In this document: positions 1 through 24,379 of the stretch, piece after piece
Position numbering within the stretch: the stretch's first letter is position 1
How the letters are laid out: every line of letters starts with the position of its first letter
Source: a virus
Virus record (IMG/VR): IMGVR_UViG_3300045413_000050
Coordinates: 1-25,951 of that record
Direction: 5' to 3' (one strand)
DNA: 25,951 bases
The notes under the pieces: generated by a model
Databases searched by the model: none
What the model saw: only the letters and a program-made list of their open reading frames with translations
What the model was told of the DNA's origin: nothing
Position numbers and translations under genes: made by a program

Positions 1-3000
1 CACTTAGAAGAATTAGGAACGAGGCAGTAAATATTGTTAAGATGGTATTCCAGTCCGACATATTCCAGAACAATGTATTCCAGATAAAAATTGATGAGGT
101 ATTACCATTATTAACTATGAATAGAGTTGTTTCTAAATCCGTATCTATTACTTCATCTACACTAAAGTATATTGGACTTGGAAGAATTATTAATGATTCC
201 ATTAGCATGGTAGAATCCAAGGCAAGATTGGGAACATTTAGAAAAGTATTGGTAGAATCTATCTCAGTACAGTCATTCAGAAGCAAGTTAGAACAACTGT
301 TGAAGATAGTATCAAGTATTGTCAATATTGCCAAGGCTGAGAACTATGTAAGAGGAAGACAAAAGGTTGTAAATAATATAGTAACAATCAACAGGTATGG
401 AGTATTCCAAAACATATTCCAATCTAATGTATTTCAAACCATTCAGAATGAGATAGTAGTGTTGATAAGATTGGGTAGGATTATTAATAATACAATTAAC
501 GTGCCAAGTACAATTAGACGATTGGGCGTATTCAGACGAATTAAGAATGAGGTGGTATCAATTATGCACTCTCATAGAACATTAATGACAATATTAAAAG
601 TGGTAACTTACTATGAACAATTAGTGGGTGTAAAGATAAGATCACTCGTAATGAAGCGTGTGTATGGTGAAAACATATCCATACAATCATTCAGAAGTAA
701 ACTTGAAATACTTAGAAGAGTGATTAATGACAGTATCAGTGTTGCAGAGAATAAGATCAAATACTCTGTATTGGTGAGACCGTTAATTGAAAATATCAAC
801 TTATCTCAAACACAGAGAAACCTGCTTGGATTTAAAAAGATAGTTAATGAATCACTATCCATTGTAGATTCTTATATAAAATATGAGGTATTGCAGAGAC
901 TGGTAAATGAAACAATTAGTATTGATGAATCATTTAGAAAGTCATGGATTAGGATATTCAGTGATATTCTTAACATTATAGATAGTAGAGTGAGATATGG
1001 TATATTTAGGCGTATTATTAACAATGATGTATCCATACAGTCATTTAGAAGTAAACTGGAGATAATCAGACGTGTAATTAATGAGTCTATTAGTATGACA
1101 GAATCCAAATTCAGATCACTCATTATGTCTAGAATACAAACTAATTCAATCAATATGGTAGATAGTAGAATTAAATATCAAATATTGAACCGTATAATAA
1201 GCAAATTCATACAAATAGAATCTACACATATAAGACGAAATACATTGAAAAGAATTATTACAGAAGTGGAAAATATAGGATTAAGAATATTCCAATCCGA
1301 TGTATTCCAGAATAACGTGTTTGCAGTATCAGAAGTAATACGATTCCTAATATTGAGAAGGATGATATTTAACAACGTTAGTATGGGTGAGAGTTTGAGA
1401 AAATCATGGGCTAGGGTATTCAGTGATACAATTAATATTGTGGATGGTAGGGTAAGATTAGGCGTACTTAAACGTATTATTGGTGAGGATGTATCAATAC
1501 AATCCTTTAGAAACAAGTTACAGATACTACGTAGGATAGTTAATGAAGGAATAAATATTGCTGAATCATTCAGAAAGTCATGGATTAGGGTATTTGGGGA
1601 AGGTATCAATATTGTAGATGATAGAGTTCCACGTCTATCTCTAAAACGTGTAATAAACAAATCTGTTGATATATTTGATTCAAGAGTGAAATTGGGATAC
1701 TTTAGAAGAATCATCACCAATTATGTCAATATGGACAGTACAATATACAGACTTGGTGTATTGAGAAGGGTGTTTGGTGAGAGTATATCTATAGAATCCA
1801 ACTATAGAAAATACCAATCATTGATGAGGGTATTAGTTAAATTTGTAGAATTGGTTGATTCACGTATCCCACGCCTATCCATTACTAGGACTATTAGCCG
1901 TATAGTAAACATATCCCACTCACATACCGTAAGACTATCATTAACTAGAGTATTACAGGAGAGTGTATCTATACAGTCATTCAGAAGTAAGCTGGAAGTA
2001 ATAAGGCGTATAATCAGTGAGGGTATGAACGTTACTGAATCATTCAGAAAGTCATGGACTAGAATATTTACAGAGTTTGTACAGATTAACCTAGCTGGTA
2101 TATTCCAAAGTATATTCCAATCCGATGTATTCCAAAAAATCTATAGAGAGACATTTGTATATCTTACAATGAAACGTGTCAGGAATGAATCAGTTGAAAT
2201 TACTGATAGTGTTAGAAAACTATCGTCATTAACAAGAGTCATAAATAAAGCTGTAAGTGTTACAGATTCATTTGTGAGAAGAATCACACTTAGACGAATC
2301 ATTAATAACACTATAAACTTGTCAGAATCATTTAGTAAGTCACAGACAATCATGAGGAGATTAATTGAGTATATGATAGTGCCATCAACACCAATAAAAT
2401 CACTAACATTAAGGCGTGTATACTCCGAGTCCATTAGTATTGTACATGGTATTAAACGAACATTAACCATACATAGATTAATCAATGAGTCGGTATCGAT
2501 ACAATCATTCAGGGGTAGATTAGAATACCTATTAAAAATCATCAATGAGGGACTAACATTGGTAGATTCACGAATATCAAAGAAGACCTTATTGAGAAGT
2601 TTGAATGAGTTCGTACAAATAGTAGATTTACAAATTAAGAGATTATCTCTAAAACGTGTAATTAATGAAGTCAGTAACATAACCTCAAATGTAATCAGAA
2701 AGTTGGTATTATTGAGAGTGATTAACAATGTAGTATCAATACAATCGTTTAGGGGTAGATTAGAATACTTACTAAAAATTATTAATGAATCAATGGAAGT
2801 AGTTGAAACCAGTATCAAATATGGTATATTTAAACGAACCATTGTGGAAGTACAGAATATAGTTCATTCATTTATATACTACTTTGTAATAGTAAAAACA
2901 GTAATTAATGGTATATCTATAAATGATAATATTGTTAGACGAATGACATTATTAAGAAGAATTAATGAGTCATTATCAATACTATCATTGTTTAGAAAAC

Positions 3001-3371
3001 ACGAATCAATACTAAGACGTGTTAGTAATTCGGTAGAGATAGGTGAATCACTTAGAAAATCATGGATTAAGGTGTTCAATGAATCTATAAATACAGTATT
3101 AATTATTAAATCATTTAAAATAATCTATATAATCATTGGTGAGTCAATATCTATTCAATCATTCAGAAATAGACGTGAAATCATATTGAGAGTGATTAAT
3201 GAGGGAGTGAGTATCGTAGAATCCTTTACTAAAATACTACTATCGGTGGTAGATGCCTTTTCACCAAAGACCAAGTTTGGTAAAGTTACACGTTCTGTAA
3301 AAGTACATGGTACGTCAAAACGTGTTAAACTTTATAAAGACGACAGGAATATAAAAGGTGAAAGCGAATGA
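1..3371 (+). CDS. giant basic 20-residue-repeat protein, 5' partial (tail fibre/adhesin-like)
   Basis: The reading frame is already open at base 3 and reads LRRIRNEAVNIVK before the first ATG at 42. That segment fits the internal repeat, so the gene begins upstream of the window and is 5'-truncated here. The visible 1,122 residues are almost entirely degenerate 20-residue units with consensus near R-R-V-I-N-E-S-I-S-I-x-E-S-x-R-x, then hydrophobics; units can be followed in register, for example from 2660 to 2840. A sub-motif SIQSFRSKLE recurs eight times and ESFRKSWIR about five times. Four units are replaced by FQ-rich segments such as VFQSDIFQNNVFQ. The last 40 residues are non-repetitive and basic. 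No signal peptide or membrane segment is seen in the visible part. The gene overlaps the next one by 4 bp (ATGA), as in a virion structural operon. Alternating hydrophobics suggest a beta-solenoid or fibre. Function is inferred; a host-like surface or adhesion protein is the alternative. Confidence 0.75.
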   Translation, partial: LRRIRNEAVNIVKMVFQSDIFQNNVFQIKIDEVLPLLTMNRVVSKSVSITSSTLKYIGLGRIINDSISMVESKARLGTFRKVLVESISVQSFRSKLEQLLKIVSSIVNIAKAENYVRGRQKVVNNIVTINRYGVFQNIFQSNVFQTIQNEIVVLIRLGRIINNTINVPSTIRRLGVFRRIKNEVVSIMHSHRTLMTILKVVTYYEQLVGVKIRSLVMKRVYGENISIQSFRSKLEILRRVINDSISVAENKIKYSVLVRPLIENINLSQTQRNLLGFKKIVNESLSIVDSYIKYEVLQRLVNETISIDESFRKSWIRIFSDILNIIDSRVRYGIFRRIINNDVSIQSFRSKLEIIRRVINESISMTESKFRSLIMSRIQTNSINMVDSRIKYQILNRIISKFIQIESTHIRRNTLKRIITEVENIGLRIFQSDVFQNNVFAVSEVIRFLILRRMIFNNVSMGESLRKSWARVFSDTINIVDGRVRLGVLKRIIGEDVSIQSFRNKLQILRRIVNEGINIAESFRKSWIRVFGEGINIVDDRVPRLSLKRVINKSVDIFDSRVKLGYFRRIITNYVNMDSTIYRLGVLRRVFGESISIESNYRKYQSLMRVLVKFVELVDSRIPRLSITRTISRIVNISHSHTVRLSLTRVLQESVSIQSFRSKLEVIRRIISEGMNVTESFRKSWTRIFTEFVQINLAGIFQSIFQSDVFQKIYRETFVYLTMKRVRNESVEITDSVRKLSSLTRVINKAVSVTDSFVRRITLRRIINNTINLSESFSKSQTIMRRLIEYMIVPSTPIKSLTLRRVYSESISIVHGIKRTLTIHRLINESVSIQSFRGRLEYLLKIINEGLTLVDSRISKKTLLRSLNEFVQIVDLQIKRLSLKRVINEVSNITSNVIRKLVLLRVINNVVSIQSFRGRLEYLLKIINESMEVVETSIKYGIFKRTIVEVQNIVHSFIYYFVIVKTVINGISINDNIVRRMTLLRRINESLSILSLFRKHESILRRVSNSVEIGESLRKSWIKVFNESINTVLIIKSFKIIYIIIGESISIQSFRNRREIILRVINEGVSIVESFTKILLSVVDAFSPKTKFGKVTRSVKVHGTSKRVKLYKDDRNIKGESE
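3..3230 (+). repeat. about fifty degenerate 60-bp (20-aa) in-frame repeats
   Basis: Conserved R-x-I-N-E and S-I-S-I positions recur every 20 codons along the whole stretch. The eight better-conserved SIQSFR sub-repeats start near 262, 676, 1030, 1492, 1966, 2493, 2735 and 3145. Their irregular spacing suggests duplication of blocks followed by divergence. Confidence 0.85.
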
Positions 3372-3721
3372 GCATGAATATGGTCGGCAGGTCAGTTGAG
3401 TTTAGGGTTAAAGTCGGTGCTAGATCTGTCATAGAGTTGACTATTACCAATGATGATGGTACAGCCAAAGACCTATCAAATACTACAAACTTTGCAACTG
3501 GTAGGTGGAAGGTCTGGAAGCCCGATGGAACTTTGATAATAGATGGTGATATATCATTCTACAGTAGGGTTAATGGAATTATAACTTATGCGTTGGGTGC
3601 AAGTGACACTACCTCAGATAAGGCTGGTGTTTGGGAGGGCGAGGTTGAAATCAAGGACACCGCAGGTAATATGACAGAACAGACGCAATCTTTTAATTTC
3701 ACCATTGAAGAATCATATTAA
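3368..3721 (+). CDS. Ig-like/BppU-like virion structural protein
   Basis: This 117-aa protein is beta-strand rich, with an early segment RSVEFRVKVGARSVIELTI, a central GRWKVWKPDGTLIIDGDI and a GVWEGEVEIKDTAGN near the end. That pattern is typical of the Ig-like N-terminal domain of phage baseplate upper proteins (BppU/DUF2479) and other tail accessory proteins. It would act in the virion, probably at the tail tip with the upstream repeat protein. The ATG overlaps the upstream stop (ATGA), and a GGTGA Shine-Dalgarno-like sequence lies about 8 nt before it, so the pair looks translationally coupled. The start could also be the second Met (MNMVG). The family assignment rests on pattern recognition only. 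Confidence 0.6.
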   Translation: MSMNMVGRSVEFRVKVGARSVIELTITNDDGTAKDLSNTTNFATGRWKVWKPDGTLIIDGDISFYSRVNGIITYALGASDTTSDKAGVWEGEVEIKDTAGNMTEQTQSFNFTIEESY

Positions 3722-5576: not shown

Positions 5577-6095
5577 ATGTCTAGTGATATATTTAAAATC
5601 AAGCCTCTAGATGAACATGCATCTAAAGTTGTAGTTGACGGTCATAAAACTGTATCACCATTTAATTCCAGCAAGCATTTAAAAACCGCAAACATACCAG
5701 CATTGTGTGACCAATGTGTCTATAGGTCGATAGAGAGTGGCGGGAATGGCAAGTGCCCAAAATACGAAACTGGTGCAATATGTGCGATTAGAAAGGACTT
5801 TATAGAACTAATAAATGAATTGGACACAAGGAATCCAGAACATGTTAAAACCATGCTGGATATGTTGGCAAAACTATCATTTGAGAATGTGCTTATGGCA
5901 TTGACGGAATCCAAGTTTGATGGTAATATACCAGACAGGAATACCAAGTCCGAGGTAAACACCTTATTAAAAATTATACAGACTATAGGTGAAATCAGTA
6001 GTAAGATAGTGGTTAGTGAGGAACATATATTAAATAAACGTGGTGATATAGAAGCCATTTTTAGACAAATAAAAGCACAAAAAACTGGTGATTAA
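5577..6095 (+). CDS. probable small terminase subunit with a Cys4 site
   Basis: The 172-aa protein lies directly before the large terminase, with only one base between stop and start. An early cluster C44-x2-C47-x12-C60-x8-C69 (CDQCVYR then GKCPKYETGAICAI) suggests a bound zinc or iron-sulphur cluster. The remainder is predicted helical (residues about 72-165), as expected for a small terminase that recognises viral DNA and loads the large subunit. The Cys cluster is unlike classical TerS, so the role comes mainly from position. The start was set by TATA spacing. Confidence 0.5.
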   Translation: MSSDIFKIKPLDEHASKVVVDGHKTVSPFNSSKHLKTANIPALCDQCVYRSIESGGNGKCPKYETGAICAIRKDFIELINELDTRNPEHVKTMLDMLAKLSFENVLMALTESKFDGNIPDRNTKSEVNTLLKIIQTIGEISSKIVVSEEHILNKRGDIEAIFRQIKAQKTGD

Positions 6096-6096
6096 C

Positions 6097-7479
6097 ATGC
6101 CTACATTAACTAAGGAACAAATGGCAGAGAGGGTTAAATTCTTACAAGTCATTACCGATTGCGTTCACAAGCCAAGTGTGTTTAGTGATGTGTTTCTAAA
6201 TCATAAATTATTTGATTATAATAAGAAATACGTTGACTGTGAGGATAGATTCATAGTATATCGTAGTGGTAGACAGGTTGGTAAAACAATATCAACTGCT
6301 GTAAAGATAATACACTATGCCTTATTTGCACCATTATTATCTGATATAATTGACAGGGAATGTGTCATAGTAATAGCAGCACCCACTCAAAATCAGGCTA
6401 GTATTATGTTCAATAAGATTAGGGATTTGGTTATGATTAATGAGTTTTTAAAATCATATGTTATTAGAAACACTCAAACAGAGTTATGGATTAATTTCTT
6501 AGATAATAGCGGGATTACTAAAATCTATACTAGGGCTACAGGTGACACTGGAACTTCTTTGAGGGGCTATTCACCTAGTGTTATAGTTGCAGATGAATGT
6601 TCTTTCATAAAGACCGATATACTCCGTGCATTTCTACCTTCGGGTATGGCTAAAAAGGCTAAGGTGTGGCTTACATCTACCCCATTCAGCAAGGCTGGTT
6701 ATTTCTATGAGGCATGTATGAACTCAAAACCAAATAATCCAGAGGGCATGTGGACAGAGTTTCATGTAAAGTCCACTGATAACCCACTTGTAAAGGCAGA
6801 CCCCACGTTTGTTGAAGAGATTAAGAGGCTTACCAAGGAAGAATATGTACAGGAGATAGAAGGTGAATTCCTAGATATTGGTGATGCACTAATACCTCAT
6901 TCACTAATCAGTGAGGCGGTTGGGGATTACACGCCTCATGGTAAGATTCGTTATTATATGGGTGTAGATGTTGCTAGAACTGGTAGGGATGAAACAGTGT
7001 ATACCATAGTTGGAATAGATGATTCAGATGTAGTATTTGTAGAGGAAGTACAGAGTGAATTACAATCCAATGTTGTTCAGATAGCTGGAAGAATGGGTGA
7101 GTTTGCACGAAAGTATAACTTGGAAACCATATTTGTAGACGAGACGGGATTAGGCGGGGGATTGGTGGATCTGAGTAGGGAACAAAAATTACCAGTTAGG
7201 GGTGTGTTCTTTTCATTACAAGAGAAAGCAGATATGTATAAAAATTTGAGATTGTTATTTGAGAACCATAAGATTAAACTTAAGCAGATTAACAAATTAG
7301 TATATCAGATATCATATCTTAGAAGGGAATATACTGAAACTGGTATAATGAAAATCAAATCAGATGAACATGATGACTTTCCAGATAGCCTTGTACTTGC
7401 CTGTAAATCTATTAGTGGTGGAGATAGTTGGCATGTTCTACCTATAGGTGCTGGTATCAAGAAGGCATTATTTGGTTAA
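6097..7479 (+). CDS. terminase large subunit (TerL)
   Basis: This 460-aa protein is the DNA-packaging motor: an ATPase that pumps DNA into the prohead and a nuclease that cuts the concatemer. The ATPase half shows Walker A G58-R-Q-V-G-K-T64, Walker B SVIVADE (161-167) with E167, and the coupling motif LTSTP (192-196). The RNase H-like nuclease half shows D291 in MGVDVARTGRDE, D348-E349 in IFVDETG and a late acidic group H425-D-D-F-P-D430. Length and motif order are normal for the family, so it looks intact. A GGTGAT ribosome-binding site lies about 7 nt before the ATG; an upstream GTG (6088) is less likely. No portal or capsid gene follows, which is unusual for a tailed virus. Confidence 0.95.
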   Translation: MPTLTKEQMAERVKFLQVITDCVHKPSVFSDVFLNHKLFDYNKKYVDCEDRFIVYRSGRQVGKTISTAVKIIHYALFAPLLSDIIDRECVIVIAAPTQNQASIMFNKIRDLVMINEFLKSYVIRNTQTELWINFLDNSGITKIYTRATGDTGTSLRGYSPSVIVADECSFIKTDILRAFLPSGMAKKAKVWLTSTPFSKAGYFYEACMNSKPNNPEGMWTEFHVKSTDNPLVKADPTFVEEIKRLTKEEYVQEIEGEFLDIGDALIPHSLISEAVGDYTPHGKIRYYMGVDVARTGRDETVYTIVGIDDSDVVFVEEVQSELQSNVVQIAGRMGEFARKYNLETIFVDETGLGGGLVDLSREQKLPVRGVFFSLQEKADMYKNLRLLFENHKIKLKQINKLVYQISYLRREYTETGIMKIKSDEHDDFPDSLVLACKSISGGDSWHVLPIGAGIKKALFG

Positions 7480-14681: not shown

Positions 14682-16651
14682 GAACCCACTCTGCAATCGT
14701 CGATATGTTTGTAAATTCAAATGGAACTGGTATTTTTCAACAGAAAAAGTATGTTGATATAATAGACAGATTACATCCAAACAGCGTATTCACTGTAAGT
14801 TGTCTGGATGACAAGATATACGAGATAGTATATGACATGATACCATCACTTGTAACAAGTGTAATGAAGGAGGCGGTTATCAGGGTATTGGCTGATAGAT
14901 TTGGAAGTCAGATGGATGTGAATTCCGTCTACAAGAATCTTACTATTAGAGTTGTTACTGATACATTGGTAAGTATGCATGATTTAAATGCAAGAGATCA
15001 TGAGAATACGTTAGTTATGTTCGATTGTGAAGTTATTGCTATAGAAAGGGAAAAAACATATGTAAAAAAGGCAGATGCATATTGCCCACTGTGTGGGTTT
15101 GATTATAGTATTACAGTCAATGATGATAGAAAGATAGAGGTTGTAACGTGCTCAAAAACCACATGTCATAGGGCTAAACTAGTATTGAAGAAACAATCAC
15201 TGCTAACTGATAACATTCAAACTATCTACTTTCAAGAGCCAATGCAATTATCTAGAAATAATTCGCCCGTAATACTTAAGGGATTATTAATAGGTAATCT
15301 GTGTGGGAAATTATACATAGGGCAGAAAAAACGCATAGTCGGCATATTCAAATCCGATATTGATTTGAAAACAAATGTTAATGATATAATAATTGAAGTC
15401 ATATCTGAACAGGATAGAGAGGAAAAACAAGTAGTTACATTAACTGATGAGCAGATTAAGAATTATGCTTTGGAAGCTAAGGATGAGGTAAAATTCGTTG
15501 AAAAATTGACTAACAGTTTCGCACCATTCATTATAGGATATCATGATATCAAGTTATCACTACTACTTATGCTAGTTGGTGGTAACTCTACAATAAAACG
15601 TGAGGATATTAACGTATTATTGGTAGGTGACCCAAGTATGGCAAAGTCAGAACTCTTAAAATTCGCACACAGTATAACTCCCAAGTCAATGTACACCAGT
15701 GGAAAAGGTTCATCGGCAGCTGGTCTAACGATAGGTCTTGTAAAGATGGAGAATGGTAACTTTGTGGCTCAGGCTGGCGTTCTTCCACTCTGTAATGGAA
15801 GTTTTGCCTTTATAGATGAGTTCGATAAAATGTCAACCGAGGATAGGAGTTCTTTGCATGAGGCGATGGAACAGAGAACTGTAAGTATTGCAAAGGCTGG
15901 ATTTAAAATGACATTACCAGCAAAGACACCAATATTGGCAGCCGCAAATCCAAAGTATGGTAAGTATGATATTGACCAAACATTATTAGATAATATAGAC
16001 ATACCTCCACCATTAATTAGTCGATTTGATCTAATATGGCTCATTAGGGATATTATTAATAAGGACAATGATTTACAAAAAGCGAAATTCATACTTGATA
16101 CATTTACTGGTACAATTGTAAATAATAATAACATGATGAGTTCAGTAGAGTTATCATCATACCTTAGTTATGTTAGAACATTATCCGTAATAATATCAGA
16201 AGATACCAAGCGTGAACTTATTGAGATATATAGTAAGATGAGAGACTTGTCTGCAACTGGAATATTTGTGGGCACTAGACAATTAGAGGCATTAGTTAGA
16301 TTAACTATGGCTCATGCCAAGTTATTACAGAAACCCATAACTGATTTAAACGATGTCAAGTGTGTAAAGAATATAATAGATAACATGTTCAAACAGTTTA
16401 ATATTAATACTAATGAACCATACTCACAAGATATGGTTGTGATTACGAGGAAGCAAACTAAGGAACACACTGCCGATACTGCGTGGAATTCATGTAAGGG
16501 GTATAATGGTGAGGTAAAATATTCTGACTTTATCAAAAAATTGATAGAGAGTGGCAAGTTTGACAGGGATAGTGCAGCCGAATACTTTACAAAGATGGAA
16601 AGAGAGTGCATAGTAAAACATTTAGGAGATAATATATATGTCAAAATCTAA
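14675..16651 (+). CDS. mcm: MCM replicative DNA helicase
   Basis: The 658-aa protein is a full minichromosome-maintenance helicase, the archaeal and eukaryotic replicative motor. The N-terminal part holds a zinc site (C137-P-L-C140 and C159-x4-C164) and OB-fold strands. The AAA+ core has Walker A G318-D-P-S-M-A-K-S325, Walker B FAFIDEFDK (377-385), sensor 1 N425 in AAANP and the arginine finger R450 in PPPLISRFD. A C-terminal winged-helix-like region (about 590-655) closes it. Length is normal, so the virus or element probably forms its own MCM hexamer instead of borrowing the host's. It is translated between the 104-aa gene and RadA with overlaps on both sides. Confidence 0.95.
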   Translation: MLRTHSAIVDMFVNSNGTGIFQQKKYVDIIDRLHPNSVFTVSCLDDKIYEIVYDMIPSLVTSVMKEAVIRVLADRFGSQMDVNSVYKNLTIRVVTDTLVSMHDLNARDHENTLVMFDCEVIAIEREKTYVKKADAYCPLCGFDYSITVNDDRKIEVVTCSKTTCHRAKLVLKKQSLLTDNIQTIYFQEPMQLSRNNSPVILKGLLIGNLCGKLYIGQKKRIVGIFKSDIDLKTNVNDIIIEVISEQDREEKQVVTLTDEQIKNYALEAKDEVKFVEKLTNSFAPFIIGYHDIKLSLLLMLVGGNSTIKREDINVLLVGDPSMAKSELLKFAHSITPKSMYTSGKGSSAAGLTIGLVKMENGNFVAQAGVLPLCNGSFAFIDEFDKMSTEDRSSLHEAMEQRTVSIAKAGFKMTLPAKTPILAAANPKYGKYDIDQTLLDNIDIPPPLISRFDLIWLIRDIINKDNDLQKAKFILDTFTGTIVNNNNMMSSVELSSYLSYVRTLSVIISEDTKRELIEIYSKMRDLSATGIFVGTRQLEALVRLTMAHAKLLQKPITDLNDVKCVKNIIDNMFKQFNINTNEPYSQDMVVITRKQTKEHTADTAWNSCKGYNGEVKYSDFIKKLIESGKFDRDSAAEYFTKMERECIVKHLGDNIYVKI

Positions 16652-17690
16652 AAAGGCTAATATGGAAGATGATTCTATAGAAGATGTCTTGGAAGAAACA
16701 GCCGTTGAACCAACAATGAATAAAGTGGGAGAAGTAGATTTATCAATTACACAAATAAAGGGTATAGGTGAAAAGACTTCTGAAAAACTGAATAATTTTG
16801 GCGTAATATCATTGTATGATATTTGTGTTCGTGGTGCTAAGGAAATCAGTGAAATTACTGGGGTCGACAAGTCAACCGCAAGTAATTGGGTATTTAAATC
16901 ACAAAAGATATTGGAAGATAACAACCTTGTAAGACCTACAGACATGACTACTAAGGATTTACTCACCTATCATTCAAATTTACCCAGATTGAAAACCCAT
17001 TGTACCGAGATAGATAACCTTTTTGGCGGGGGGTTAGTACCAGAATCAGTATATGAGATTTATGGTGAATTTGGGAGTGGTAAAACCCAGTTCTGCCTTT
17101 CTCTAACTGCTGAATGTTTGGCAAAAGATGAAAAGATTATTTGGATTGACTGTGAAGATACATTCAGACCCAACAGATTGGTAGAAATAATGGTGGCTAG
17201 AGGACTTGTACCAGAAGCCAGTGTTGCCATAGATAAACTTGATAATATCAAGTATTTCCATTGTCCTACGACGGAACAAATGCTGGGTGTAGTAAACTCT
17301 CTAAGTAAGATGTTATTAGAATTTAGACCTAGGTTGGTAGTATTGGATGGTGCTATAGGTCAGTTTAGGGAAGAGTATTTGGGTAGGGGCACTTTATCAG
17401 AGAGACAAAATGAGATTGCTAGACTTATGACCCACATAAAAAACATATCATACTACTTTAGATGTACCGTTCTATTCACCAATCAAGTTCAATCAGACCC
17501 AAGTGTGATGTTTGGTGACCCAATCAAGCCAATAGGTGGTAACGTGGTGGCTCATGCCTCAACATACAGAATCTATTTTAAGAAGTCAGGGAAAAACAGG
17601 TTAGCTAAAATGATAGACTCACCCGAACATAAAAATAGAGAAGCAAGTTATATCTTGAATGAAAAAGGTATAGACAACGTTGAATTATAA
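16638..17690 (+). CDS. radA: RadA/Rad51-family recombinase
   Basis: The 350-aa protein has an N-terminal acidic region and a helix-hairpin-helix domain (ITQIKGIGEKTSEKLNNFG, about 37-55). The RecA core follows, with Walker A G143-E-F-G-S-G-K-T150, TFRPNR (175-180), Walker B L233-V-V-L-D237, a GRGTLSERQ segment (249-257), TNQVQ (281-285) and KPIGGNVVAHAST (297-309). RadA forms filaments on single-stranded DNA and drives strand exchange. Residue 238 after the Walker B Asp is Gly where Ser is usual, a small deviation. A GGAGAT ribosome site precedes the ATG, which overlaps the MCM end by 14 bp, so both are expressed together. Confidence 0.95.
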   Translation: MSKSKKANMEDDSIEDVLEETAVEPTMNKVGEVDLSITQIKGIGEKTSEKLNNFGVISLYDICVRGAKEISEITGVDKSTASNWVFKSQKILEDNNLVRPTDMTTKDLLTYHSNLPRLKTHCTEIDNLFGGGLVPESVYEIYGEFGSGKTQFCLSLTAECLAKDEKIIWIDCEDTFRPNRLVEIMVARGLVPEASVAIDKLDNIKYFHCPTTEQMLGVVNSLSKMLLEFRPRLVVLDGAIGQFREEYLGRGTLSERQNEIARLMTHIKNISYYFRCTVLFTNQVQSDPSVMFGDPIKPIGGNVVAHASTYRIYFKKSGKNRLAKMIDSPEHKNREASYILNEKGIDNVEL

Positions 17691-17800: not shown

Positions 17801-17864
17801 TGGGGGCTAGAACCTGATTGAGAGGTCAGGCAAAGGTTAAATGTTCCTTTCGTTGATGCCCTCA
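17801..17864 (+). ncRNA. putative structured RNA with three helices
   Basis: A closing helix TGGGGGC (17801-17807) pairs with GCCCTCA (17858-17864), seven pairs including one G-U. Inside it are hairpin CCTGA/TCAGG (17813-17830) and hairpin AAAGG/CCTTT (17832-17850). The predicted transcription start falls at the first base of the outer helix. No tRNA T-arm is present, and no ORF. It overlaps the stop codon of the opposing HNH gene. It could be a viral small RNA, a decoy or an untranslated leader; the class is not recognised. Confidence 0.45.
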
Positions 17865-18182
17865 TTTACTCTCTTTAACTACTTTAATCAACCTATCAAG
17901 TGTTTCAGGCTTGAACATTTTTAATACTTCTACTGTCTTATGATGCTTTTTACAAAGAAGTGTGAATCTATTAGGGTCTTTCCTAATTATTGGTAGGACA
18001 TATTCATTATAAGCATACGTATCTGCAAAATCGGAATATATCTTATCACCGTTAATATATCTCTTATGATGAAACGTAAAGTATTTACCAAACTTTCTAT
18101 GACAGACATAGCATTTTAAATCAAACTGTGGTAGTGCAGCAACATCATGTTTTAACTTTTCTACTATCTCTTTTCTACCCAC
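17862..18182 (-). CDS. HNH endonuclease-like protein
   Basis: The 106-aa product has C24-Y-V-C27, H38-H39 in FTFHHKRY, and a late L-L-C77-K-K-H80-H81. This matches the Cys-Cys/HH/Cys-His pattern of HNH (beta-beta-alpha metal) nucleases, which nick or cut DNA. A longer open frame continues to 18416, but that part is antisense to the divergent gene. GTG 18182 lies 28 nt from TAATATATTT and is chosen. It could be a homing-type nuclease or a virus-encoded packaging or restriction nuclease; target unknown. Confidence 0.75.
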   Translation of the reverse strand: MGRKEIVEKLKHDVAALPQFDLKCYVCHRKFGKYFTFHHKRYINGDKIYSDFADTYAYNEYVLPIIRKDPNRFTLLCKKHHKTVEVLKMFKPETLDRLIKVVKESK

Positions 18183-18219
18183 AAATAAGTTTATATCTGT
18201 AAATATATTAGTTTTATTG
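18183..18219. promoter_or_regulatory. 37-bp divergent double promoter
   Basis: Plus TTTATATC (from 18190) is 30 nt before ATG 18220. Minus TAATATATTT (from 18210) is 28 nt before GTG 18182. Length and geometry match the spacer at 11254-11290. Confidence 0.65.
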
Positions 18220-18621
18220 ATGAGAAAGGATAAAAACGGTAACATTATCGGGTATGGTGAGGATTCTGCCTTAGAGATTCTTATACAATTATTCCCCAAT
18301 AGGTCAATATCTCGCCAAGTACCCCTAGCTAATTTGTTGGCAGAGGATTGGGTAAGTGACTTGTCAGAAAAACAACAGAAGGAAACCATTGACCTCGTAT
18401 TATTTGGTACTCCCAATATAGCTGTAAGAATACAGGATGCACATCACAGAGGTAAGATTACAACCATGCGTGACACAGTTCAAAGAAAGACTTTGGAGTG
18501 GAATGGTGTAGTAGTAGTAGACCTATTAGATATAGAGTGTCATGAGTTAATGAAGGAGAGAGTTAATAAGAAAAGTATTAGTGAAGTTCTAAGAGCCTTT
18601 GAAAGGAACGGAATTACCTAA
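18220..18621 (+). CDS. PD-(D/E)XK-like (VSR/DUF559 type) protein, altered active site
   Basis: The 133-aa protein has the order of the VSR/DUF559 nucleases: E19-x-L-x-Q-L-F-P with a later RQVPL, D58 in IDLVLFG, then IAVRIQDAHHR (67-77), R84-D85 with QRKTLEWNGVVVVDL, and ECHELMKE. In active relatives the core reads like I-E-I-D-G-x-x-H; here Arg and Gln replace the expected acidic residues (R70, Q72). It may therefore be inactive, use D73, or be a DNA-binding derivative. ATG 18220 fits the TATA spacing; TTG 18217 directly precedes it. Pairing with a divergent HNH gene suggests a DNA-processing role. Confidence 0.45.
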   Translation: MRKDKNGNIIGYGEDSALEILIQLFPNRSISRQVPLANLLAEDWVSDLSEKQQKETIDLVLFGTPNIAVRIQDAHHRGKITTMRDTVQRKTLEWNGVVVVDLLDIECHELMKERVNKKSISEVLRAFERNGIT

Positions 18622-19525: not shown

Positions 19526-20455
19526 TCAATTAGCGAACTTCTCTACAATAGCCTGAACGACATTCACTGTAACTGCATTACCCATCTGCCTGTAACGCTG
19601 CGTCTTGCTTACACCATCTGTCCAGCCATCAGGAAAACCTTGCAGTCTTTCACATTCTAACGGTGTGAGCATCCTTAGTTTCTCATTGATCTGGTAAACG
19701 CCAGTCTTTGAACCCATGCCACCAGAGTTTGCCCTAATTGTTCTTGCAATTCCATCAGGCGAATAAATTCGATATGTGTCCTTGTCTGTATACTGTACCA
19801 TCTTGATCATTGTCCTTGATCCAGCCCATCCTTTCCAGTAGGTTGATACGAGTGTTCCACTAAGTGGAGTTTGAACGGAGTTCCCTTGTCCTTGTGCTTC
19901 TGAAAGTGTGCATACATCGACTTGACTGCCTTCTCCGATAGGAAATATTGCCTGTCGGGATTTTCCTCTAAGATGTCCAATAATGAAGATCCTTTCCCTG
20001 TTCTGCGGAACTCCGAAGTCCTTGCTGTTAAGCACTTGCCATTCGTACCAATACCCCAACTCATCCAGCGTTTTGAGGATGGTTTCAAAGGTTCTTCCAC
20101 TATCGTGGTTAAGCAATCCCTTGACATTTTCAAGGAGTAGAATTTCAGGTCGCTTTTCTTTTGCAATCCTAGCGATTTCAAAAAAGAGCGTGCCTCTGGT
20201 ATCTTCAAAGCCTCGTCTTGTTCCAACAACACTAAAACTTTGGCAAGGAAACCCTGCACAGAGAAGGTCGAAGTCTGGAAGTCTGCTTGGCTCGATTCTT
20301 GTAGCATCCAATTCAGAAGGGTAACACCCGAAGTTTTTTCTGTATGTTTCTCTAGCGTACTTGTCAATCTCACACGCACCTACCACTTCGTGACCTAATC
20401 TTGTCAATGCTAGATCGAAGCCACCCACACCACAGAACAATGAAAAACATTTCAT
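19526..20455 (-). CDS. DNA (cytosine-5-)-methyltransferase
   Basis: The 309-aa protein transfers a methyl group from S-adenosylmethionine to C5 of cytosine. Motifs in order are I FCGVGGFD (7-14), IV F69-P-C71-Q with the catalytic Cys71, VI E109-N-V, VIII Q151-N-R-E-R155, IX near LTPLECERLQGFPDGW (263-278) and X G292-N-A-V. The target-recognition region (about 170-255) is short, so it is a compact monospecific enzyme; the sequence recognised cannot be read. No cognate restriction endonuclease lies beside it, which fits an orphan viral enzyme that protects DNA from host restriction. Base composition is clearly richer in G+C than most neighbours, suggesting recent transfer. A 21-aa leader ORF is ATGA-coupled upstream. 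Confidence 0.95.
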   Translation of the reverse strand: MKCFSLFCGVGGFDLALTRLGHEVVGACEIDKYARETYRKNFGCYPSELDATRIEPSRLPDFDLLCAGFPCQSFSVVGTRRGFEDTRGTLFFEIARIAKEKRPEILLLENVKGLLNHDSGRTFETILKTLDELGYWYEWQVLNSKDFGVPQNRERIFIIGHLRGKSRQAIFPIGEGSQVDVCTLSEAQGQGNSVQTPLSGTLVSTYWKGWAGSRTMIKMVQYTDKDTYRIYSPDGIARTIRANSGGMGSKTGVYQINEKLRMLTPLECERLQGFPDGWTDGVSKTQRYRQMGNAVTVNVVQAIVEKFAN

Positions 20456-21448: not shown

Positions 21449-23401
21449 CTAACGTAATTCGTCAACTATTATCTTTCTGAACTTTCGCATTAATACATCT
21501 ACCATATTATCTCCATCAACATTTATAACATTCTTGAATAATTTATGCATTACTGAATCATCATCACCTATGAATATTGGAACTATGTTTCCAATAGTTT
21601 TAATCTGCTTAATCTCAGAAGCGCACATTTGTATTGTTTCTTTTTGTTGGGTTTTAATAGAACCTATCATCAAATTCGATGGGGAACCATCTGTCAAGAA
21701 TATAATTATCTTCTTCCTACCTCTCATATTATGTAATATTGTTTTTGATTTCCTTAATGCTTGAACCGTGGGTGTTTGCTCATACGCAGAATAAACCTTC
21801 AATCTATCTATCTTGCTTAGATCATCAATTAGGGTGTATCCCATTTCAGCATCTCTCCCCCCCCATGATATTGCTTTTATTTCTATTTCTTTCTTATCCT
21901 TTACAGACCGCATCATTGTCTTAACTATTGTGTGGACAACATCCATCTTTTTAAAACTCTTATCCTTCACCCAATTATCCATAGAGCCACTCGCATCTAC
22001 AGATAATAGTATTGATAGTTTTATCTTGTTCAACTTTCTATTGAATATCTTTGTGCCACGCTCTTGTATGCTGTTTAGATATGCTCTGAGATTCACACCA
22101 TCCCCACTATTCATTAGTCTATTCTTTCTATTAGTTACTGTATCTACAGTCTTTCGTATTTCGTTTCTAACCTTAAGTGGTAAAACCATTTCGTGGATTG
22201 AAGAAGAAAGGAGGTCTAGATTATTGGTTATATCAATTTCAGTTGCATTATTCTTCATGGTTGAGATGCCTAATTTAGTATTTAACTCTTTAATCTCGTT
22301 TTGTTTTTCCTCACTCAAATCAACCCCATCTATTTCATCTTTGTCAAACCCCTCACTAATTGATATTGGGTTTAACATCGTTGAATCAATGCCACCATTA
22401 ATATTCTCTTTTTGGTCTTTAAACATATTCTCAATATTATTTTGTATGTTTTTTATCTTTTTCTTATTTCTATATTCCTTAGCCTTTAATGCTTTCATTT
22501 TCTTTTTATAGTCACTATTTATCGAAGCTCTTTTCATTTGTCGGTCTTGTTCTAATTTATTAACCTCGTCTTCGTTTTTACATTTAGATACTGCTTCTCT
22601 AAACTCATCACGCATATTATCTATTTCGTGGTTAGTCTGTGTAGTTTGATTCATTCCCTCTGTTCTAATATCCCGTATATTTTGTTCATGCTTATCAATC
22701 TTATCATTATCACTCTTTAATTTATCCAACATGTTATCTAGATATGGGTGATAGTAGTTTTTACAAAATTCTCTAAATATTTTAATCATGCCTTTATGTG
22801 ATTGCATGTTAAGACTCTCATGTATATTCATGTATGTATCCTGTTCAGCTTCGGGCAGCAGTTCATTATCAAAGAATCTAGTAGCAAGTAGTTTAGATGC
22901 TGGATCATCCAGTGTCTTCGTGCTACCTTTCATACTCTTTCTAACTTTTATATATCCATCAGCTCTTCCAATCCTGCCATAACCATCCTTACTTTCCATC
23001 CTCACATCCTCCATTATATTAAAAAGCGATATATGTGCATTTATAATTCCTTTACCTATAAACGTGTCTGCAAAATCGCTTGTTAAATATAACTCATTGG
23101 GGTGTAGCTTGCTACATACTTTATCTAGATATTCAGTCGTCACCATTTTCAGCGATGCTAGGAAGCTACGTTTAAAACTTTCTTGTACTATATGCCCAAG
23201 CTCATGCTTTAATATTGTTAGTATTTGTTCAGTAGACATACTCATATTGACATAGACATTATATATTTCACCACGTTTATCATTTACTTTAACGGTGTAT
23301 CCCTTTACGTTATCTTTAGCATGAAATAGAATTATATCACATCCTGTCTTTTCCCTAGCAATCTGTATGTAGTCATTCATTATATTATCGATTGATCTCA
23401 T
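21449..23401 (-). CDS. zincin/coiled-coil/VWA protein (CobT- or DUF2201-like)
   Basis: The 650-aa protein has three parts. Residues 1-140 hold a zincin-type site, H66-E-L-G-H70, with a downstream LFNIMEDVRME (127-137) that could supply the third ligand, as in putative-metallopeptidase (DUF2201_N-like) and CobT-type proteins. Residues about 220-340 are highly charged coiled coil. Residues about 462-640 form a VWA domain with an intact MIDAS: D469-A-S471-G-S473, a Thr near 543-545 and D571 in LTDGSPS. Such VWA proteins work with MoxR/CobS AAA+ partners in chelatase or chaperone machines; the ATPase is the gene just upstream. A strong GGAGGT site (23411-23416) precedes the ATG by 9 nt. The substrate is unknown. 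Confidence 0.85.
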   Translation of the reverse strand: MRSIDNIMNDYIQIAREKTGCDIILFHAKDNVKGYTVKVNDKRGEIYNVYVNMSMSTEQILTILKHELGHIVQESFKRSFLASLKMVTTEYLDKVCSKLHPNELYLTSDFADTFIGKGIINAHISLFNIMEDVRMESKDGYGRIGRADGYIKVRKSMKGSTKTLDDPASKLLATRFFDNELLPEAEQDTYMNIHESLNMQSHKGMIKIFREFCKNYYHPYLDNMLDKLKSDNDKIDKHEQNIRDIRTEGMNQTTQTNHEIDNMRDEFREAVSKCKNEDEVNKLEQDRQMKRASINSDYKKKMKALKAKEYRNKKKIKNIQNNIENMFKDQKENINGGIDSTMLNPISISEGFDKDEIDGVDLSEEKQNEIKELNTKLGISTMKNNATEIDITNNLDLLSSSIHEMVLPLKVRNEIRKTVDTVTNRKNRLMNSGDGVNLRAYLNSIQERGTKIFNRKLNKIKLSILLSVDASGSMDNWVKDKSFKKMDVVHTIVKTMMRSVKDKKEIEIKAISWGGRDAEMGYTLIDDLSKIDRLKVYSAYEQTPTVQALRKSKTILHNMRGRKKIIIFLTDGSPSNLMIGSIKTQQKETIQMCASEIKQIKTIGNIVPIFIGDDDSVMHKLFKNVINVDGDNMVDVLMRKFRKIIVDELR

Positions 23402-23425: not shown

Positions 23426-24379
23426 TTAAAGTGTAACTCCAAACACATCTGCTATCTTATCCTTTACTATCGTTCTTTGCTCTTCAGTTGGCATTTTAAA
23501 TACTACTGCCATCTCTAATGCCATTCGTATTGCCATGTCATGTGCGCTATTAGCGGTATCTACTGTAGGGTTTGGATTGCGTAGGGCATATATGTTCGCA
23601 AACTGTTGCAAACTCCTAGTAGATAGTGAGTAGTCAAGTGAGCCATTATTACGCAGGTTTCGTATATCATTTGCCAGCAATAATATCCTATCTATGTCGC
23701 CAGCACTCATGGTCTTCCAATTTACTATTGCCTTGATTATATTGTCGGGAGGTAGCTTGATTATTTTTCCCATAATCCTATCTGCCAAATCCTCGTTCAA
23801 TGAGTTGACACCACTATATGATAGTGGATTCATTGTGCCTATTAAGGTCAACACACATCCATGATTCACCCTAAATATATGGGAGTTTGCTACACACATT
23901 CTTCTATCATCTGTCACACTATTAATTAACTTCTGCGTGTCTGTGGGCAGGGCGTTTATCTCATCCAAGTATATCACTGCATTACCAAACTTATTGGCAC
24001 ACATTATTCCAATAGGTAATATACCTAATTGAAATGCAAACGTTCCATCTTTCCTAATTACTGTGTGACCCAATAGGTCAGAATCACTAGTGGAACTAGA
24101 ACAATTGTATGGAATCATGTGGGTTTTCAGGACTGTACATAGGTCATTAATTAGTAGCGTCTTACCTAATCCCTTATCTCCCTCCAATATGAAATGGAAT
24201 CCAGCCTTAATCATAGACTCACATTCACTGGCTTCTCCGTTAATGTCCCTATATTCTATACCATAGTTCCTAGGTTCATACAATTCATAGTTAACCTCTA
24301 CGAATGGTGTGCCATTTACATTTGAATTAAAATTCTCAGATGTATTTGACGATTCTTTTATTTGATTTTGCTTTGTCAT
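23426..24379 (-). CDS. MoxR/CobS-like AAA+ ATPase
   Basis: The 317-aa protein has a variable N-terminus (1-30), Walker A G67-D-K-G-L-G-K-T74, Walker B V135-I-Y-L-D-E140, sensor 1 G181-T-M-N184-P and an arginine finger in DLADR201. The long loop between Walker A and B (DLLGHTVIRKDG) is typical of the MoxR/CobS/GvpN group. These ATPases form hexamers that remodel proteins or insert metals with a VWA partner, here the zincin-VWA protein 24 nt downstream. Cobalt insertion for cobalamin (CobS) is possible but cannot be separated from other MoxR roles. It has its own promoter, nearly identical to that at 25371. Confidence 0.88.
   Translation of the reverse strand: MTKQNQIKESSNTSENFNSNVNGTPFVEVNYELYEPRNYGIEYRDINGEASECESMIKAGFHFILEGDKGLGKTLLINDLCTVLKTHMIPYNCSSSTSDSDLLGHTVIRKDGTFAFQLGILPIGIMCANKFGNAVIYLDEINALPTDTQKLINSVTDDRRMCVANSHIFRVNHGCVLTLIGTMNPLSYSGVNSLNEDLADRIMGKIIKLPPDNIIKAIVNWKTMSAGDIDRILLLANDIRNLRNNGSLDYSLSTRSLQQFANIYALRNPNPTVDTANSAHDMAIRMALEMAVVFKMPTEEQRTIVKDKIADVFGVTL

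Follow-up and report, generated by a model that had tools for sequence, protein, structure and literature searches.

Genes of the Window and Identity of the Virus

The window analyzed here is a virus record of 25,951 bases that encodes a terminase, an MCM, RadA, a cytosine methylase, and a pair of AAA and VWA proteins. At its 5′ edge lies a gene for a long repeat protein, the stop codon of which overlaps the start codon (ATG) of the gene downstream. The features are collected in Table 1.

Table 1. Position and strand of the features in the 25,951-base window
Feature	Position	Strand	Remarks
Repeat protein	3..3371	+	1122 aa, truncated at the 5′ edge of the window; 43 units of 20 residues scored
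FQ element 1, MVFQSDIFQNNVFQ	42..83	+	Read from translation
FQ element 2, GVFQNIFQSNVFQ	399..437	+	Read from translation
FQ element 3, IFQSDVFQNNVF	1287..1322	+	Read from translation
FQ element 4, IFQSIFQSDVFQ	2100..2135	+	Read from translation
Eight Phe-type units, F at position 12 (S-I-Q-S-F-R-x-K/R-L)	243..3188	+	Virus-specific; 60 bases each; starts at 243, 657, 1011, 1473, 1947, 2475, 2715, 3129
Lys-rich non-repeat C-terminal tail, RSVKVHGTSKRVKLYKDDRNIKGESE	3249..3368	+	About 40 residues
117-aa beta-sandwich-type protein	3368..3721	+	62%-identical L014 orthologue passes the Pfam BppU_N cut-off
Terminase large subunit	6088..7479	+	Query that gathered related viral loci
RadA	16638..17690	+	Closest to Nitrososphaeria RadA
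ORF with HNH-like Cys/His pattern	17862..18416	-	Overlaps the opposite-strand ORF below
ORF	18217..18621	+	Overlaps the ORF above
C5 cytosine DNA methylase	19526..20455	-	Pfam DNA_methylase, E 2e-89
VWA-domain protein and adjacent AAA (dynein-related) ATPase	21449..23401 and 23426..24379	-	CobT/CobS-like

RadA scores 236-252 bits against 8/8 Nitrososphaeria genomes and at most 192 bits against 10/10 other archaea. The marthaviruses are Caudoviricetes of Marine Group I Thaumarchaeota (Lopez-Perez et al. 2019, cited in PMC7678222), and PMC7678222 names RadA, CobS, and ATPases among their typical genes. By published gene content, the window resembles them in its radA, its AAA ATPase/CobS-like gene, and its VWA gene, and it combines a CobS-like AAA gene and a terminase with a RadA of the thaumarchaeal type. 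On the evidence of its genes, the window is part of the genome of a head-tailed, marthavirus-like virus of Nitrososphaeria. No report of the repeat protein turned up in the papers searched.

A related terminase occurs in 3/250 genomes of the family of Nitrosotenuis chungbukensis (Nitrosopumilaceae). In one of these three, the contig L208 (G119:C199), 6.9 kb long and part of a Nitrosopumilaceae genome, encodes a terminase 50% identical to that of the window and has the same gene order (terminase, Cas4-like, BppU_N-like, and repeat genes), with an acidic repeat protein of 19-residue units in the slot of the window protein. It is a virus contig binned with a likely host. The host of the window virus is very likely a nitrososphaerial ammonia oxidizer, MAG binning being in itself no proof. 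A RadA profile scan over the genome contigs gave no match, an MCM search matched Thaumarchaeota plus other archaea, and full-length MCM failed to single out a host.

Architecture of the Repeat Protein

An initial sequence-only reading of the locus described a large basic protein, open at the window edge, with a unit of the R-x-I-N-E-S-I-S-I type. The frame is indeed strongly basic (pI 10.9, 187 K+R and 93 D+E), and its unit motif is R-[IV]-[IV]-N-E-S-[IV]-S-I. The strongest residue-identity autocorrelation falls at lag 20 (0.191, z 13.3), followed by peaks at 60, 80, 40, and 100, while lags at 58, 98, 118, and 138 point to some units of 18 residues. A 20-column position-specific profile trained across the viral family scores 43 units in the protein and 0 in a shuffled version of it; successive units are spaced by exactly 20 residues in 32 cases and by 18 in 4. 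Absence of a 20-residue period, which the sequence-only reading had given as a sign against itself, was looked for, and the lag-20 maximum and the 43 units were found instead. The period it gave therefore stands, but its estimate of about fifty units does not, given the number that can be scored, the interruptions by FQ elements, and the non-repeat end.

Identical residues in different units are encoded by differing codons at frequencies of 0.53-0.60, compared with 0.59 expected if codons were independent. Because the codon differences between units lie near the independent expectation, the repeat pattern is an old one, maintained by selection at the protein level, and does not stem from recent copying or slippage. 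Pfam matches of the repeat ORF to Swi3 and REV1_C are noise; all fall below the cut-off, with no stretch passing alone.

The fold was approached by prediction. Two AlphaFold2 runs yielded low-confidence models that are essentially all helix (pLDDT 56 and 44, pTM 0.20 and 0.26), and Foldseek and a PDB-sequence profile search for the viral repeat gave no match. In the hydrophobicity spectrum of the unit, a 3.3-residue term dominates in the viruses and a 5-residue term in the hosts, a measure that does not separate a helix from a beta-solenoid. The richness of the host unit in Ser/Thr and beta-branched residues would argue for a beta structure.

Relation to Host Surface Repeats

A search of archaea with the viral repeat profile, as proposed in the sequence-only reading, returned large secreted proteins in 48/200 Nitrosopumilaceae genomes (best E 9e-17) and no match in the other archaeal genomes searched (0/20 and 0/115, about 130 genomes with a few in both sets). 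The open frames of the matched host proteins span about 860 to 6,500 residues. Several of these proteins have a hydrophobic, signal-like stretch at the N-terminus, and all seven that were read fully or nearly so are acidic. The statement in the sequence-only reading that thaumarchaeal surface proteins carry acidic repeats of similar length was borne out: hhalign places the viral and host units in register over the same length (probability 94.5, E 7.5e-8, score 46, 14% pairwise identity), compared with a score of at most 15.4 for 40 column-permuted host-unit controls. No register was supplied to either the profile-profile alignment or the whole-genome searches.

Hydrophobic residues occupy positions 3, 7, and 9 in both units. 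At position 5, every host unit has D and 82% of viral units have E/D; at position 11, D/E is present in 99% of host units and E/D in 68% of viral units. Over positions 4-11 this agreement is in part built in, since a short motif was first used to seed the host units. By unit length and register, the viral unit belongs to the 20-residue repeat family of thaumarchaeal surface proteins. Phe at position 12 sets a group of viral units apart (172/868, 20%), with 0/247 host units having it.

It is improbable that the viral array is convergent, low-complexity periodic text, rich in Ser/Ile/Val/Arg and similar to host repeats by composition only. The low-complexity, beta-branched composition and the alignment identity of only 14% would be expected of such text; the equal unit length and register, far above the same-composition permuted controls, the lack of matches in about 130 other archaeal genomes, and the saturation of synonymous sites with residues kept speak against it.

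A Variable Gene Slot in Related Viruses

Forty-eight related loci were collected from IMG/VR by terminase, and in about 28 related viral contigs a 20-residue repeat ORF immediately precedes the 117-aa gene. An IMG/VR scan with the window repeat as a single protein found no relatives, and a tblastn search of 50,697 phage records yielded nothing beyond one weak match, to an Aeromonas phage (E 3e-3); two further viral queries had no match. The slot is filled by 13-residue KTHTTDSxLAKV-type repeats in L006, L008, and L043 and by 14-residue FDIRQAITDTLTNR-type repeats in L047; searches with these found no convincing host counterpart and, being single-sequence searches, are weak negatives. The slot resembles a cassette site for long repeat proteins.

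From virus to virus, the repeat type ahead of the BppU_N-like gene differs, while FQ- or SYT-type elements recur, as does a basic tail at the C-terminus. The array of the window protein is broken by four FQxxxFQ elements. Such elements (VFQSDVFQNNVFQ) begin most slot proteins and recur internally; most full-length slot proteins start with a conserved FQ block, examples being the N-termini of L004, L014, L015, L026, and L044. Slot proteins of other viruses have SYTxxSYT or SFTxxSFT in place of FQxxxFQ. The FQ elements may possibly act as a cap or a branching point. Basic VKT/KLYK tails like that of the window close many slot proteins, including those built of other repeat units.

Where the upstream genes can be read, they follow the order head-tail connector-like, tail-tube-like, tape-measure-like, hub-like, and fiber genes; then come, in some relatives, LamG and Gly_rich_2 genes, followed by the repeat gene and the 117-aa gene. 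LamG, Gly_rich_2, and BppU_N are profile matches; the names connector, tube, tape-measure, and hub were assigned from sequence and gene order. The location in the tail/fiber block is seen in relatives, the window itself starting inside the repeat gene. Tailed viruses commonly have long, fast-evolving fiber proteins at such a genome position. The closest relative, L044, has a repeat protein that is 443 aa longer than the open-ended one of the window and 37% identical to it, compared with 75-90% for the neighboring proteins, and the repeat gene is the fastest-changing among those compared. Rapid divergence is typical of host-range adhesins.

Inspection by eye found no signal-peptide-like N-terminus among the viral N-termini, which are those of full-length relatives, the window N-terminus being missing. 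The lack of an evident signal peptide fits a virion protein. The position of the gene at the distal end of the tail/fiber block, adjoining the BppU_N-like gene, makes a surface-contact role likely. Both features also bear on the idea that the repeat protein acts outside the virion, in the infected cell, where it would join host repeat proteins and so alter the host surface or block superinfection. A unit common to host surface proteins would suit such a role, but a gene in the late tail/fiber block and full-length N-termini without an evident signal peptide make it a rather slim prospect.

The main rival to an attachment fiber is a passive one. The repeats would form the shaft, the LamG, Gly-rich, and BppU_N-like neighbors would recognize the host, and the host-like unit would simply make a stable stalk. 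Units of 20, 19, 14, and 13 residues interchange in the slot while FQ-like N-termini and basic tails persist, as if only length and stiffness mattered, and adhesin-type domains are encoded next door. Set against this are the divergence of the repeat gene, which exceeds that of every other gene compared, and the Phe-type variant, whose absence from the 247 host units suggests more than a spacer; a purely passive shaft is a possible, if unlikely, account.

Charge of the Repeat Units

The net charge per unit is -1.45 in the host, +0.85 in the viral family, and +1.81 in the window, so the net-acidic array that characterizes the host repeat family is not what the window encodes. Arg/Lys residues at positions 15 and 17 are virus-specific and those at position 1 are much commoner in the virus; the host has neutral Q/T/A there. 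The sequence-only reading had proposed a charge-inverted version of the host repeat. The contrast between a basic window and acidic hosts holds, but a literal inversion does not, the acidic positions 5 and 11 being kept and Arg/Lys being added at 1, 15, and 17.

Nor is basic charge a rule among these viruses. The window protein is, tied with that of L005, the most basic of the 32 proteins of its slot; 27/32 are net positive, including ones with other repeat units, but 5/32 are net negative, and the Nitrosopumilaceae-binned contig has an acidic repeat protein too. Basic charge is a frequent feature of the slot proteins, not a defining one. Since related viruses have net-acidic versions, charge attraction is not a general mechanism. 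A freshwater origin alone was ruled out as the source of the basic charge: the window protein carries +8.4 net charges per 100 residues, compared with -0.8 for the terminase, the Cas4-like protein, and one more neighbor together, and the charge of these near-neutral neighbors correlates weakly with repeat charge (r 0.28).

A basic array could also serve to hold viral DNA, as a nucleic-acid-binding or scaffold protein. The pI of 10.9 and the 187 Lys and Arg residues are what such a function would call for, but slot orthologues with pI 5.2-6.5 exist, no DNA-binding family matches above its cut-off, and the gene adjoins fiber genes, which leaves this function very improbable. The Nitrosopumilus S-layer is highly negative (PMC11153153), so a basic fiber would have an obvious target even without repeat-to-repeat pairing.

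Proposed Role in Attachment

The reading preferred here, at a probability only somewhat above one half (about 0.55), is that the repeat protein is a long tail fiber or adhesin of a marthavirus-like virus that attaches by mimicking host surface repeats. Presence in the virion, an extended fiber shape, and binding to the host surface are what we infer from sequence and gene position. Most of the protein consists of tandem copies of the 20-residue unit of the hosts' giant secreted proteins, with the hydrophobic and acidic positions kept and Arg/Lys placed at fixed polar positions to give about +2 per unit. The array would most likely lie along, or weave into, the acidic surface coat of the host, held by same-fold contacts with the host repeats plus electrostatic attraction, and this contact would draw the tip of the tail to the membrane. 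Binding or capping points would be provided by the short Phe-type units and the FQ elements. The fiber locus is the ordinary part of this proposal; an array apparently built from the host's own surface unit with charges at fixed positions is the unusual one.

Against attachment stand the AlphaFold2 models, which leaned helical and not toward the beta fold suggested by a surface-repeat fiber, and the 13- and 14-residue slot repeats that lack a convincing host counterpart. The true receptor binders might be encoded by the adjacent LamG and Gly-rich genes. A more specific form of the attachment fiber, in which viral arrays with positive charges at fixed positions would pair unit by unit with acidic host arrays like a zipper, the unit type being swapped between viruses as hosts change, is speculative and decidedly doubtful.

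Viruses of ammonia-oxidizing archaea affect the marine nitrogen cycle, and, to our knowledge, cell recognition by the tailed viruses among them has not been established. A fiber of the host surface unit would name testable candidates for both sides of the contact, the viral array and the giant repeat proteins of the host, and could help explain why the hosts keep large, variable repeat proteins.

Comparison with Known Systems

The giant repeat surface proteins of Nitrosopumilaceae (unit QSLSDSITVSDNxxxSxxIT, e.g., L185-L191) have the 20-residue length and the register in common with the virus as well as Ser/Thr at positions 6 and 8. Host versions have Sec-type signals, further surface domains, and a net negative charge; the viral proteins are without an evident signal and have Arg/Lys at 1, 15, and 17, Phe-type units, and FQ elements. 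In lactococcal siphophages, BppU is the baseplate upper protein (Pfam BppU_N), and the window gene directly downstream of the repeat gene is of the BppU_N type, although the repeat protein itself has no match to BppU or to a receptor-binding domain. The Gly-rich tail-fiber adhesins of haloarchaeal hafunaviruses (PMC8651126) differ in being Gly-rich domains where the window protein is a repeat array. The two systems would be alike in having a host-range adhesin at a hypervariable fiber locus, and Gly_rich_2 genes also occur in the repeat-gene block of L014 and L015.
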